From: Aliarcobacter sp.
GTDB lineage: Bacteria > Campylobacterota > Campylobacteria > Campylobacterales > Arcobacteraceae
Length of the DNA stretch: 36,841 nucleotides
NCBI GenBank assembly: GCA_017995775.1
Contig: JAGOIF010000003.1
Coordinates: 25,474-62,314 of the forward strand
Direction of reading: 5' to 3'
Shown here: piece after piece, positions 22,060 through 27,069 of the stretch
Numbering within the stretch: position 1 is the first letter of the stretch
Layout: each line of letters begins with the position of its first letter
Notes under the pieces: generated by a model
What the model was told of the DNA's origin: nothing
The model's input: only the letters and a program-made list of their open reading frames with translations
The model's database searches: none
Program-made: the position numbers and the translations under genes

Positions 22060-22237
22060 CCTTGTTTATAATATATATCCAATTAATACTAGTAAAGCAC
22101 CTAAGTATAGGTATCTAGGACAAATAAAATAATTGCTAAAACATCTAAAAAAGAATAATTTTTTATTTTATATATATTTATTTAATACATACTTAACTAA
22201 AAAGAGATAAAATCACAAATAATAAAAGGAGTTTATT
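22060..22237. other. Intergenic region before the ABC/cysteine cassette
   Basis: About 180 bp of very AT-rich sequence without a gene. It holds a short hairpin ACCTA-AGTA-TAGGT (22099-22112) and a possible -10 box TAAAAT (22208-22213) for the plus-strand cassette. The AAAAGGAG ribosome binding site is at 22224-22231. I see no known riboswitch. Confidence 0.4.
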
Positions 22238-22495
22238 ATCACTACTTTATCAAAAAAATTTATACTTTTTATATCATTGTTATTAAGCCTTTTTATTTTT
22301 CTTATTTTTATTCATCCAATTTTAAATAAAGAAATTGACTACTCATTTAAAATAAGTGCCATTACGAAACTTTCAAATATTGCATATTCAAATAGTATTT
22401 ATGAAGTAAGAATAAAAGACAATCAAGATTTTTCAAATAACTTACACAATATGCCTTTACAAATAAAATATCTGGATTTTATCTATGAAGATTAG
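22238..22495 (+). CDS. Small membrane-anchored periplasmic protein, first gene of ABC cassette (ATC or ATT start)
   Basis: From ATC at 22238 the frame encodes 85 residues: a basic start (TTLSKKF), one membrane helix (about 8-28) and a periplasmic tail of about 57 residues without cysteine. I do not recognise the family. The only site with Shine-Dalgarno character is AAAAGGAG at 22224-22231. The codons at usual distance are ATT (22235) and ATC (22238). An in-frame stop lies at 22223-22225, and no ATG, GTG or TTG occurs before TTG at 22277. A start at 22277 has no binding site and would drop the basic residues that orient the helix. The end overlaps the permease gene by 11 bp. It may be an accessory subunit of the transporter. 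Confidence 0.6.
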   Translation: MTTLSKKFILFISLLLSLFIFLIFIHPILNKEIDYSFKISAITKLSNIAYSNSIYEVRIKDNQDFSNNLHNMPLQIKYLDFIYED

Positions 22496-23663
22496 TGTAT
22501 TTTTTAATTTCTTATTTTTATTACTGTTCACACATAAATCAAAACATTTAGCAATTTTTTTTATTTCTATTTTAATAGTTTTTCTAAGTTCTTCAATACT
22601 TTTTATTTCAAATACTTTAAAAAAAGAGATATTTACAACACTTGAAAATCAAAGTGATTTTGTAATTCAAAAAATCAATAGTGGTAAATCTCAATATACT
22701 CCTATTTCTTGGATTGAAGATTTTAAAGAAATTTCTGGAGTAAAAAATATTCAGCAAAGGGTTTATGGTCAATATTACTTTATGCCTGAGGATGCTTATT
22801 TTACTATTGTTGGAATTGATTTATTTGAGGAAGGCAGTTCTAAAAATATCAAAGAGCTTTTAAAGGTTTTAAATATTTCTGAGTTTTTACAAAGTGATTC
22901 TATGATTATTGGAAATGGAATTAAAAAACTATTTGATAAATATAAATATATAGATTCATATGATTTTAAACTTTTTAATAATGATTTAAAAGAGATAAAA
23001 ATCTTTAAAGATTTACCACAAAAAGCAAATTTAGTAGCAAATGATTTAATAATTATGGATATAAATCTTGCAAAAGAGATTTTAAACATAAAAGAAGATG
23101 AAGCCACAGATATAGTTTTGAATGTTCCAAATAATCTAGAGCGAGCAAATGTAAAAGATCAATTGATTTTAAAACACTCAAATACAAGAATTCTTCAAAA
23201 AGAAAACTTGAAAAAAGAGTATGAAAATATGTTCAACTACAAAGGTGGGATATTTTTGATTTTATTTATTGTTGTAATTTTAACTTTTACTTTGATTTTA
23301 TATCAAAGATATTCAATGATAAGTTTAGGAGATAAAAAAGAGATAGGGATTTTAAAAGCTGTTGGATGGAGTATAAAAGATATTTTAAAACTTAAAATTA
23401 TGGAAAATTTCATCGTGGCTTTTATGGCCTTTATTATTGGAATAATTTTATCTTATATATTTGTATTTATTTTAAATGCACCTATTTTAAAAAATGTTTT
23501 TATTGGTTCACAAAATTTGCAAAATGATTTTATTTTTAATGCAAATATTCAAATAGATAGTTTAATCACCCTATTTTTATTTTTCATGATTCCATTTTTA
23601 AGTGCAGTTTTAATTCCTGTTTGGAAAGTAGCAATCATAGATTCAACACAGAGTATGAAATGA
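22485..23663 (+). CDS. ABC transporter permease, FtsX/MacB type
   Basis: A 392-residue permease with the MacB/FtsX plan. Helix 1 is at about 21-43, and a large periplasmic domain spans about 44-255. Three C-terminal helices follow (about 256-275, 307-330, 361-380). The coupling segment GDKKEIGILKAVGWSIKDI (about 285-303) is the hallmark of the FtsX domain. Type VII ABC systems of this kind usually act mechanically on periplasmic partners or move lipoproteins, rather than pumping solutes through a channel. Only one permease gene is present, so a homodimer is likely. It overlaps the small gene before it (11 bp) and the ATPase after it (4 bp). Confidence 0.88.
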   Translation: MKISVFFNFLFLLLFTHKSKHLAIFFISILIVFLSSSILFISNTLKKEIFTTLENQSDFVIQKINSGKSQYTPISWIEDFKEISGVKNIQQRVYGQYYFMPEDAYFTIVGIDLFEEGSSKNIKELLKVLNISEFLQSDSMIIGNGIKKLFDKYKYIDSYDFKLFNNDLKEIKIFKDLPQKANLVANDLIIMDINLAKEILNIKEDEATDIVLNVPNNLERANVKDQLILKHSNTRILQKENLKKEYENMFNYKGGIFLILFIVVILTFTLILYQRYSMISLGDKKEIGILKAVGWSIKDILKLKIMENFIVAFMAFIIGIILSYIFVFILNAPILKNVFIGSQNLQNDFIFNANIQIDSLITLFLFFMIPFLSAVLIPVWKVAIIDSTQSMK

Positions 23664-24331
23664 TAAAAATTACAAATTTAAATAAAGTATTTAATGAAAA
23701 TACAAAAAAAGAGTTCCACGCTTTAAAAGATATAAATCTTGAAATAAAAACTTCTTCATGTGTTATTTTAAAAGGTGTTAGTGGAAGTGGAAAATCAACT
23801 CTTTTATCAATAATTGGAACACTTTTAAAACCAACAAGTGGTGAAATAAAAATAGACGAAGAAAGTGTTACTAAACTTCCTGATTTACACGCATCTGCTT
23901 TTAGAGCAAAAAAATTAGGTTTTATTTTTCAATCATATAATTTATTCAACGAATTAAGTGTGAAAGATAATATCTCACTTCCTTTAATTCCTCTTGGATA
24001 TTCTCAAAAACAAATAAATGAACAAACTTTAATAGCTTTAAAACTTGCAAACATAGAACATAAAAAAGATGAGCTTGTCTATAACCTTTCAGGTGGTGAG
24101 AAACAAAGATGTGCAATTGCAAGAGCATTAGTGAATAATCCTGATATTATCCTTTGTGATGAGCCTACGGCTAATTTAGACTATGATAACTCTATGATAT
24201 TTATACAAAGTCTAAAAGAGCTTAAAAAACTAAATAAAACTATAATCGTTGCAACTCATGATCCTATTTTTGAAAGCTTAGATTTTGTGGATGAGATTAT
24301 AAATATAAAAAATGGAACTATTTGTGAATAG
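23660..24331 (+). CDS. ABC transporter ATP-binding protein, LolD/MacB type
   Basis: A 223-residue ATPase. All motifs are present: Walker A GVSGSGKST (39-47), Q-loop Gln91 in FIFQSYNLF, signature LSGGEKQR (143-150), Walker B ILCDEP (163-169 region, Glu168) and switch His200 in ATHD. The start ATG overlaps the permease stop as ATGA, giving MIKITNLNKVF as in the family. An upstream in-frame start at 23621 would add 13 unrelated residues inside the permease gene. It pairs with the FtsX-type permease to drive the cassette. Confidence 0.92.
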   Translation: MIKITNLNKVFNENTKKEFHALKDINLEIKTSSCVILKGVSGSGKSTLLSIIGTLLKPTSGEIKIDEESVTKLPDLHASAFRAKKLGFIFQSYNLFNELSVKDNISLPLIPLGYSQKQINEQTLIALKLANIEHKKDELVYNLSGGEKQRCAIARALVNNPDIILCDEPTANLDYDNSMIFIQSLKELKKLNKTIIVATHDPIFESLDFVDEIINIKNGTICE

Positions 24332-25292
24332 TGTTCTTCTTTCAAATGAAATAATTATCTATATTTTCGTTCAAATGATTTTAATTTTATTACTTTTTAT
24401 TGCATTTTATTTTTCTATTTCAATTATAAAAAACTGGGATTATGAAAAAACAACAACAACTCAATACAAATTAGAAAATAAATCCTATTTAGTAATCTTG
24501 ATAATAAGCTTTACTCTAATTGTAAAAATATTTTTATTTCCTTATTTTGCTTACAGTTTAGATAATCTTTCAAATATCGTCCCAGGAGCCATGTGTGCTG
24601 CTGGAATTGTGGGTGCAAATGATTTTGGACAGATAAATCTTGCTTTAAAAATACTAATCTTATTTTTCATAGGTGTTTGGCTGATTATAAATTCCCTTGA
24701 TTTAAAAGCAAAAACCTATCCTTATACTAAAAAGAAATATTGGTTTTATTCTTTTATTTTTTTTCTTTGTATTATTGAAATATTTTTAGATTTTTTCTTT
24801 TTAAATGGGATTTCTACAAAAGAGCCTGTTATGTGTTGCTCAACAATATTTGGAATAAATAGTGTTGGAAGTAATATTCCTTTTGATTTAAGTATTTCAA
24901 TGCTTTTAGTACTATTTTATCTTTTATATATTTTGATTGTTTTTATAAATATTCAAAAGCAAGCTTTTTTAAATCTGATTTTTAACTTCTTATTTTTATA
25001 TATTGCATATTATTGTGTGACTTATTTCTTTTCAACTTATGTTTATGAACTTCCTACACATCAGTGTCCATTTTGTATGCTTCAAAAAGAGTATCATTTT
25101 ATTGGATATTTTATTTGGTCAACACTTTTTTTAGGAACTTTTTTTGGAGTTGCTAGTTATATTTTGAAAACTTTTATAAATAAGGATTTAGAATATACTT
25201 ATAAATATTCTTTAGTTTTTAATTCTATTTTTGTATTTATTTGTAGTTTTTATGTGATTAGGTATTATTTGATAAATGGAGTTTTTTTGTAA
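24312..25292 (+). CDS. Polytopic membrane protein with periplasmic cysteine motifs (unknown function)
   Basis: A 326-residue protein with about eight helices (near 11-38, 58-80, 109-128, 142-165, 194-213, 217-242, 262-286, 298-318). Basic loops (39-57, 129-141, 213-218, 287-297) suggest that side is cytoplasmic. The three other long loops are then periplasmic, and each carries cysteine: PGAMCAAGIVGANDFG (Cys95), EPVMCCSTIFGINSVG (Cys175, Cys176) and THQCPFCMLQKEY (Cys252, Cys255). The first two look like copies of one motif. CPFC with a following helix recalls DsbB-type CxxC sites but the fold differs. It overlaps the ATPase gene by 20 bp. A GTG at 24324 is an alternative start. Metal or heme binding, or thiol exchange, are possible. 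Confidence 0.7.
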   Translation: MELFVNSVLLSNEIIIYIFVQMILILLLFIAFYFSISIIKNWDYEKTTTTQYKLENKSYLVILIISFTLIVKIFLFPYFAYSLDNLSNIVPGAMCAAGIVGANDFGQINLALKILILFFIGVWLIINSLDLKAKTYPYTKKKYWFYSFIFFLCIIEIFLDFFFLNGISTKEPVMCCSTIFGINSVGSNIPFDLSISMLLVLFYLLYILIVFINIQKQAFLNLIFNFLFLYIAYYCVTYFFSTYVYELPTHQCPFCMLQKEYHFIGYFIWSTLFLGTFFGVASYILKTFINKDLEYTYKYSLVFNSIFVFICSFYVIRYYLINGVFL

Positions 25293-25299
25293 AAATTCC

Positions 25300-25319
25300 A
25301 TGATAGTTTAAACTATCAT
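25300..25319. terminator. Bidirectional terminator after the ABC cassette
   Basis: ATGATAGTTT-AAACTATCAT is a perfect palindrome. The stem can extend outward over ATTC/GAAT with one mismatch. T-rich sequence follows on both strands (CTTTTAATTTT on plus, GGAATTTTTAC on minus). It sits between the convergent cysteine membrane protein and lipoprotein genes. Confidence 0.7.
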
Positions 25320-25341: not shown

Positions 25342-25608
25342 TTATTTAGTTTCTTCTTTTACTGTATCTTCTTTGATTACATCTTCTTTTTCATTTTCTT
25401 CAGCTTGCTCATTTACTTCTTCAGCTGCTTGTTCTTTCATCGCTGCTTCATCTTCTTTAACTTCTTCTGTTGATGTTGCTTGTACAGCTATTACTTCGTC
25501 TTTTTTAACTTCTTGTGTTGCTTCAGCTTGTGCAACTGGTTTTTTCTCTTCGTTACAACCTGTTAATAACGCTAATAATACAGCTGATCCTAATAAAATT
25601 TTTCTCAT
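25342..25608 (-). CDS. Small acidic lipoprotein, 88 aa
   Basis: MRKILLGSAVLLALLTGCN is a lipoprotein signal peptide with lipobox LTGC (Cys18). The mature part is about 70 residues of low-complexity Glu/Lys/Ala/Thr sequence (EEVKEDEAA, EEVNEQAEE, VKEETK), very acidic and probably disordered or coiled. The start chosen is the ATG at 25606-25608, with AAAAGGAT seven bases ahead; earlier in-frame starts give an N-terminus that does not fit a signal peptide. The asparagine after the lipid cysteine does not settle inner or outer membrane placement. Function unknown. Confidence 0.75.
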   Translation of the reverse strand: MRKILLGSAVLLALLTGCNEEKKPVAQAEATQEVKKDEVIAVQATSTEEVKEDEAAMKEQAAEEVNEQAEENEKEDVIKEDTVKEETK

Positions 25609-25684
25609 AGATTGCATCCTTTTGTGTTTTGTTTTTAATAAACAATTGCGGAATAATATCAAAATTATTGTGTAGTAATTGTGT

Positions 25685-25723: not shown

Positions 25724-25761
25724 AAAAAAGTATAAACTCACTTAAAAATTTATACTTTTTT
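25724..25761 (-). terminator. Terminator of the YitT-like/cytidylate-kinase-like gene
   Basis: AAAAAAGTATAAA (25724-25736) pairs exactly with 25749-25761, giving a 13-bp stem with a 12-nt loop. The minus strand ends the stem in six T residues. It includes the stop codon of the gene. Confidence 0.65.
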
Positions 25762-27069
25762 ATCTATTTTACTATGAATAAGCCCAATTACTTTTTGTAT
25801 ATTTTCTTTTGTTTCACAAAAAGATGCATCTATACAAAGATGATAATTTGTAGCATCTTTCCAGTTTTTGTGAGTAAAGTGCATACAATAATTGGCTCTT
25901 TTTTCATCGAAATCTTTTAAATCTTGCCATGTAATATTTTTTGTTGGTGAGTATTCATTATTTATTTTTTCTACTCTGTATTTTGCATTTGCATGTATGA
26001 AAATATTGATACAATTTTCATAATCTTTTAAAATAAAGTTGGCACATCGCCCTACTATTACACAAGATTCTTTAGCACATATCTCTCTTATAATTTTACT
26101 TTGAACTAAAAATAAATCATCTTTTGGAGGTATCTCATCATTTACATAGGCATAGTTTTGTTCATACAAATCATAAAGAAGTGAGTTGCTTAAAGTTTGT
26201 TCATTTTGTTGAATATAGTCTAATGTGTAGCCTGTTTTTTGAGCCGTTAACTGGATTAACTCTTTATCATAAAAAGAAATTCCCAACTCTTTTGCAATTG
26301 CTTGAGCAATTTCGTGTCCGCCACTTCCATATTCTCTTGAAATAGTAATAACATAGTTGTTTGATGCTCGATTTGCAGATGAAGGCTCTCTTTCTTTGGA
26401 TGATTTATCCATAAGCCATCTTTCCATAAAAGCTAATTTAATACTAAAAAACTTAATCAAAGCTCCAATTAACAGTGCCGCAATAATACTTCCTTCTCTG
26501 ATTCCTACTAACTCATAAAAGAAGATTATTGAGCTGGTTATTCCTATAATTACCATCAAAGAATCCATAGAAATTTTGATAGTTCCAAACTCTTTTTTAA
26601 AAGTTTGTGAAATAACCATAACCAAACCTTCTAAAGGCAAATAAGTTAGTCTTGTTTTAACAACAAGAAATATACCAAATGCCAAAACAAGGCAAGAAAG
26701 TATACATAAAATGAATTGTTCCATATAATTTGAAGGATTTAGGTTTTTTACCATAGACATCGTAATATCTATACAATAGCCAAAAAATATAAGTGCAGGA
26801 AGTTGAACAAGTTGAATTAATTTATATTTTTTTCGTAATATTGCAATTTGTATGAGCATAAATATAGCATTTAAAAGTATCGTAAATTCTCCAATAGATA
26901 AGGAAAAATATAAACTATAAATATAAGGTACGCATGAAATTGGAGAAACTCCTATTCCTGCTTTTACTGAAAATGAAACTCCAAATGCCATAATACAAAG
27001 ACCTACTATAAAAACAAGTATTCTTTTTATAAAATTTATATTTAAAGTCTCTATTTTTTTAATCTGCAT
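25750..27069 (-). CDS. YitT/YczE-like membrane domain fused to cytidylate-kinase-like domain
   Basis: A 439-residue fusion. The N-terminal half (about 14-215) has five or six helices and motifs of the YczE/YitT group (FGVSFSVKAGIGVSPISC near 29-46, LPLEGLVMVIS near 144-154). After a charged polar linker (about 216-236) comes a P-loop kinase domain of the cytidylate-kinase-like family (about 239-437), opening YVITISREYGSGGHEIAQAIAKEL and continuing FYDKELI and VIVGRCANFIL. The glycine loop lacks the classic GK[ST], as is usual in this family. The substrate is unknown. It probably phosphorylates a nucleotide or similar small molecule at the membrane (inference). Confidence 0.82.
   Translation of the reverse strand: MQIKKIETLNINFIKRILVFIVGLCIMAFGVSFSVKAGIGVSPISCVPYIYSLYFSLSIGEFTILLNAIFMLIQIAILRKKYKLIQLVQLPALIFFGYCIDITMSMVKNLNPSNYMEQFILCILSCLVLAFGIFLVVKTRLTYLPLEGLVMVISQTFKKEFGTIKISMDSLMVIIGITSSIIFFYELVGIREGSIIAALLIGALIKFFSIKLAFMERWLMDKSSKEREPSSANRASNNYVITISREYGSGGHEIAQAIAKELGISFYDKELIQLTAQKTGYTLDYIQQNEQTLSNSLLYDLYEQNYAYVNDEIPPKDDLFLVQSKIIREICAKESCVIVGRCANFILKDYENCINIFIHANAKYRVEKINNEYSPTKNITWQDLKDFDEKRANYCMHFTHKNWKDATNYHLCIDASFCETKENIQKVIGLIHSKIDKKV

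Follow-up and report, generated by a model that had tools for sequence, protein, structure and literature searches.

The chaperone NosL binds a single Cu(I), and NosZ depends on NosFY/NosD for its CuZ centre (PMC7558416, PMC6530538). The haem-copper sulfite reductase MccA is counted among the cuproenzymes as well (PMC7558416). Copper import in C. jejuni has been described as unknown (PMC8267372), and no account was found of the route that brings copper to the haem-copper site of MccA or to further copper enzymes in the Campylobacterota. A five-gene insertion between nosL and nosY was drawn, without a function, in the Sulfurospirillum cavolei nos cluster; it comprises genes for a hypothetical protein, an ABC permease, an ABC ATPase and two further hypothetical proteins (PMC4794192, Fig. 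5). MacB-type ABC proteins have been described as transmitting motion and not carrying substrate through the membrane (PMC5985334, PMC6172431).

The locus studied here is a cassette of four genes on the plus strand (22238-25292) of a 36,841-nucleotide stretch of Aliarcobacter DNA, which is called the window below. The genes encode a small membrane-anchored protein, a permease, an ATPase and a protein with eight predicted transmembrane helices and conserved cysteines, here called the cysteine protein (Table 1). As originally predicted, they overlap end to end, namely by 11 nt between genes 1 and 2, by 4 nt (ATGA) between genes 2 and 3 and by 20 or 8 nt between genes 3 and 4, depending on the start used. 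The cassette is flanked by a divergent dksA-like gene on one side and by a convergent gene on the other (25342-25662, minus strand); the latter encodes a small Glu/Lys/Ala-rich lipoprotein and adjoins the cassette in several Aliarcobacter loci. Further on, a gene on the minus strand (25750-27069) combines a YczE/DUF6198-type membrane domain (PF19700) with a cytidylate-kinase-like domain (PF13189), which is an unusual pair. The palindrome that follows the operon is a possible bidirectional terminator; a scan for GC-rich terminators gave it no score.

Table 1. Positions of the cassette genes and associated elements in the window.
Feature	Position	Strand	Remarks
GGAG ribosome-binding site of the 85-aa gene	22228..22231	+	6 nt before the ATC start; 14 or more genomes of the genus keep GGAG-N6-AT(C/T) at the cassette
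85-aa membrane-anchored protein	22238..22495	+	one N-terminal TM, short tail ending FVY/FIY; ATC start; frame kept in relatives
FtsX-type ABC permease, 392 aa	22485..23663	+	TM1, large periplasmic domain, C-terminal TMs; PF02687, E 8.7e-13
LolD/FtsE-type ABC ATPase, 223 aa	23660..24331	+	ATG start; PF00005, E about 1.1e-34
8-TM cysteine protein, 326 aa	24312..25292	+	probable start GTG 24324; invariant Cys/Met/His in three loops
Perfect 20-bp AT-rich palindrome ATGATAGTTTAAACTATCAT	25300..25319		directly after the operon

The proposal that permease and ATPase form a machine of the FtsX/LolD type agrees with the domain searches. An FtsX-like C-terminal domain is present in the permease (PF02687, 48.8 bits against a cut-off of 25.5), which also gave weak profile matches to the structures of YtrF, MacB and LolC. 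All motifs of the ATPase (PF00005) are intact (Walker A GVSGSGKST, signature LSGGE, Walker B DEPTANLD and H-loop THD), and it is of the LolD/FtsE type; LolD, FtsE and L_ocin_972 were its best NCBIfam matches, all under cut-off, and no curated NCBIfam cut-off was reached for LolCE, MacB, LolD or FtsE equivalogs. MacA, a LolC/E pair, EnvC and P19/Ftr1, which had been listed as missing, are indeed absent from the locus, and neither gene of the P19/Ftr1 iron system was identified near the cassette, be it in the window or in relatives. The alignment of the permease contained no column of conserved cysteines and no conserved Met/His cluster; therefore, the permease is not an obvious copper channel.

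The cysteine protein matched no Pfam or NCBIfam family. Most of its relatives start four codons later than the longest frame, which corresponds to the GTG at 24324. The alignment of 38 members has 29 invariant positions. Eight of these are soft-metal ligands (five Cys, two Met, one His), arranged as M94-C95, C175-C176 and H250-x-C252-P-F-C255-M256. The AlphaFold2 model (mean pLDDT 89) has eight long helices, with the invariant ligands in the loops TM2-3, TM4-5 and TM6-7. Provided that every helix crosses the membrane, the three loops would lie on one membrane side in this model. Since the Lys-rich loops are modelled on the opposite side, the positive-inside rule predicts that the cysteine loops should face the periplasm. 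When either the whole model or a fragment comprising TM4-7 was used in a PDB fold search, no clear match was obtained.

No ATG, GTG or TTG is present at the beginning of the 85-aa gene; the position 6 nt after the GGAG is occupied by ATC. At least 14 species of the genus have ATC or ATT here, and never ATG. The first canonical in-frame start (TTG at 22277) is not conserved, and a canonical start codon could be ruled out, as none is conserved in frame. In relatives outside the genus, ATG or GTG is often found near the start position. Non-ATG starts of this kind are rare and sometimes regulatory, as in infC, and low translation of the first gene of the operon may therefore be deliberate. The conservation of ATC/ATT suggests that weak or regulated initiation has been selected. 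The 85-aa protein itself might, as a guess, be an assembly or anchoring subunit.

Of the 298 Campylobacterota genomes sampled, 107 contain relatives of the cysteine protein, which nearly always follow the permease and ATPase of the cassette directly; the protein was furthermore identified in 37 of 60 nearer relatives and at 46 loci of a wider genome collection. A few copies occur in metagenome-assembled genomes labelled Krumholzibacteriota and Desulfosarcina. An adjoining ATPase was found at 41 of 43 loci and an adjoining permease at 38; of the five permease misses, three fall at contig ends or where little sequence is available upstream. The order permease, ATPase, cysteine protein is kept almost everywhere. 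As the two ABC genes are adjacent in nearly every relative, the cassette is not a chance arrangement; it is old and conserved, and the prediction of one functional unit holds. Homologues of the cysteine gene are not found mostly outside such operons, which would have spoken against the prediction: only two copies lack permease and ATPase (L049:8013-8969 and L052:8001-8969), and both stand beside NosL-like genes. The copper module may therefore be centred on the cysteine protein. On a Sulfurovum contig (L043:222-2981), two cysteine-protein genes are present with NosL-like and SafE genes between them. An origin from a phage or virus was ruled out, as viral contigs contain no relatives. A tree built from the cysteine protein sets the Aliarcobacter clade apart from an mcc-linked clade, a nos-linked group and several groups linked to SafE; the mcc-linked copies and most of the nos-linked copies form supported clades, and the long branches L080, L062 and L058 are placed with uncertainty.

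The genes around the cassette connect it to NosL. Outside Aliarcobacter, a single or double NosL gene precedes the cassette, and downstream of it lie genes for a NosL-like anchored protein and a membrane protein of the DsbD_2/SafE type. At the 24 non-Aliarcobacter loci with full flanks, NosL2 was found 22 times, the second NosL-like anchored protein 19 times and DsbD_2/SafE 18 times, and every locus has at least one of them. Among the matches listed, NosL lies ≤6 kb from the cassette at 95 of 126 loci, about 0.6% being expected per hit. The link was also observed at the level of whole genomes. NosL is encoded by 130 of the 298 Campylobacterota genomes, comprising all 107 with the cassette and 23 of the 191 without it; the Fisher test for this association (p ~1e-58) takes no account of shared ancestry, related species not being independent samples. 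By genus, the cassette is present in 26 and NosL in 31 of 58. After removal of the 88 genomes with nosZ, 210 were left, of which 40 have both, none the cassette only, four NosL only and 166 neither. Among genomes of the window's own genus that are at least 90% complete, 23 have both, five neither and none one alone; in two incomplete genomes of the genus (G005 and G017) NosL was found and the cassette was not detected, G017 keeping the start motif of the 85-aa gene. The Aliarcobacter cassette is isolated, adjoined by neither NosL nor a client gene, and the genome of the window carries a 365-aa double-NosL gene on another contig (G000:C29:538-1635). The window copy is thus a reduced version of the cassette, with its NosL gene elsewhere in the genome. 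By association the link of the cassette to copper is strong. NosL and cassette could, however, also occur together because they share a copper regulon and not because they form one machine.

As candidates for the client, MccA and NosZ were considered. All 48 close MccA homologues (≥60% identity) are found in genomes with the cassette, 47 of them within 16 kb of it, and the 48th (G223) lies at the edge of a contig other than that of the cassette. None of the 37 distant homologues (46-53% identity) has the cassette nearby. These form an MccA-like octahaem clade (G232, G255, G095 and 34 other genomes), and since no cassette is nearby and most of the genomes also lack NosL, it may be asked whether these enzymes use copper. 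Of 90 nosZ genes, 15 have a cassette at a distance of up to 20 kb, and a link to NosZ alone is ruled out by the 40 nosZ-less genomes that carry the cassette. Both NosZ and a close MccA are missing from 28 of the 107 cassette genomes, and the window genome has neither NosZ nor MccA. In the Wolinella-like genome G208 the gene order is mccA, a gene for an FKBP-type isomerase, mccC, mccD, a gene for a CcsA1-like haem lyase, two further genes, NosL2 and the cassette. Counted from mccA, the cysteine protein is encoded by the 12th gene and might thus correspond to MccL. The same genome contains a second, very divergent copy (L080:5431-10921) downstream of CcoG and a 322-aa protein; CcoG (TIGR02745, 559 bits), two genes before this copy, was described in Rhodobacter as a Cu(II) reductase (PMC7558416).

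Combining these results, it is considered reasonably probable that the cassette is an inner-membrane ABC machine for NosL-dependent handling or insertion of Cu(I), which would resemble NosDFY in action and use an unrelated permease. The original prediction of metal, heme or thiol handling stands in its metal and thiol part, and is sharpened to copper, most probably, with a NosL-type chaperone as partner. The role of NosL, NosFY and NosD, the mechanics of MacB and the ligand set together lead to the simplest model, in which Cu(I) would pass from NosL to the eight-helix protein and the ABC unit would drive its release to the client. Periplasmic NosL proteins, in the window genome the double-NosL protein, would bring Cu(I). 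The cysteine protein would take it up through its three Cys/Met/His loops, or would keep the right thiol state. ATP hydrolysis would set the FtsX permease with its periplasmic domain in motion, in the manner of MacB or LolCDE, and this motion would help to transfer copper to an exported respiratory enzyme or to insert it there. Each lineage would have a client of its own, this being MccA in the mcc-linked clade and NosZ in the nos-linked clade; in Aliarcobacter it would probably be another cuproenzyme, for which a cbb3-type oxidase is a guess. More tentatively, the cassette could represent a second class of NosL-dependent copper insertase, unrelated to NosDFY, that diverged to serve MccA, NosZ and a further client in Aliarcobacter and other genomes that have neither MccA nor NosZ.

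The cysteines also allow a reading in which copper is involved indirectly and the eight-helix protein is a VKOR/DsbB-like, quinone-linked thiol oxidoreductase that holds cysteines of NosL or the client in the reduced or oxidised state. The CPFC just before a TM helix and the CC loop two helices earlier follow the VKOR order (TM, loop Cys, TM, TM, CxxC, TM), hhalign placed CPFC in register with the VKOR cysteines, and CC too in one comparison, and DsbD_2 and thioredoxin-like genes are among the neighbours of the cassette. Pfam VKOR matches one orthologue (G039, residues 174-251, E 0.0018), but the best score of PF07884, in one orthologue, was 18.8 bits against a gathering score of 27.5, and none of the 38 aligned members matched. 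The hhalign probabilities were 0.2-13% for VKOR and 0.3% for DsbB, the alignments being thin. Homology to VKOR, tempting because of the cysteine register and the Pfam match, is not carried by profile and fold tests; VKOR was absent among the fold matches, and the resemblance of TM4-7 is kept as a lead. Homology to DsbB appears improbable, with its low hhalign probability and no PF02600 match. Invariant Met and His beside the Cys suit Cu(I) better than a thiol-redox role. The thiol-redox reading is held to be unlikely.

The machine might instead clear Cu(I) out of the membrane or the periplasm. Exporters are common among MacB-like ABC systems (PMC5985334), NosL and the cysteine loops could serve as Cu(I) sinks, and no client gene adjoins the cassette in Aliarcobacter. 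The strict pairing with mccA and the partial pairing with nos clusters argue against detoxification, and the flanking genes showed no recognisable TolC and no adaptor of MacA type. This reading appears quite improbable. A LolCDE-like role, in which a lipoprotein or NosL itself would be extracted or sorted without metal chemistry, would suit a permease and ATPase nearest to the LolCDE/MacB/FtsEX group, and NosL of denitrifiers is a lipoprotein (PMC7558416). However, the double-NosL proteins have, by eye, a plain signal peptide and no lipobox Cys, the permease scored 25.7 bits against a LolC/E cut-off of 362, and the invariant Cys loops would be left unexplained. Of the readings, this is the least credible. 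LolCDE lipoprotein sorting and MacAB efflux as such were rejected, with scores far under the cut-offs and partners missing. SirEFG of Shewanella was rejected as a copper ABC system, since it is a haem lyase according to PMC6976685.

For the preferred reading, NosL-dependent copper handling, a cassette that was never found without NosL and tracks MccA almost perfectly provides named genes for a direct test, and it suggests that enzymes other than N2O reductase also receive copper with the help of an ABC system. As food-borne organisms are found among the Aliarcobacter species, the reduced cassette may also be relevant to their respiration. No paper assigning a function to the cassette was found; the original mcc papers lie outside the literature covered and may already name its genes. 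The original statement that no named system has this composition was too strong, as the cassette is part of the mcc cluster in G208 and its gene set was drawn in the S. cavolei nos cluster.

With the MacB/LolCDE/FtsEX superfamily, the cassette shares the FtsX-fold C-terminus of the permease, the LolD/FtsE-like ATPase and, probably, mechanotransmission; it differs in its single, separate permease gene and in that MacA, LolA and EnvC partners were not found. Unlike the MacB tripartite pump, it has ATPase and permease as separate genes and no MacA adaptor in the operon. The cysteine protein resembles VKOR/DsbB in that a CxxC precedes a TM helix and that a previous loop, facing the same side, contains Cys, but it has eight TM helices and an extra MC loop, and its profile matches are not significant. 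The cassette is not NosDFY, because the permease families differ: FtsX (PF02687) in the cassette, ABC-2 type (ABC2_membrane_2, PF12679) for NosY at these loci. Moreover, it lacks NosD, adds the cysteine protein and the small anchored protein, and is present in genomes without nosZ. What both systems have in common is an ABC ATPase with a permease, linked to NosL chaperones and to copper enzymes that are exported, and in some Sulfurospirillum-like genomes the cassette lies inside the nos cluster. The S. cavolei insertion, which the 2016 paper left without a link to other loci (PMC4794192), fits the order small protein, permease, ATPase, cysteine protein and NosL-like protein found at the same place in L084 and L087, as matched by order and annotation and not by alignment. 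The mcc cluster known from Wolinella succinogenes MccA is matched by G208, where NosL2 and the four cassette genes follow mccABCD and CcsA1, whereas the window copy lies outside an mcc cluster, in a separate Aliarcobacter clade without adjacent NosL.
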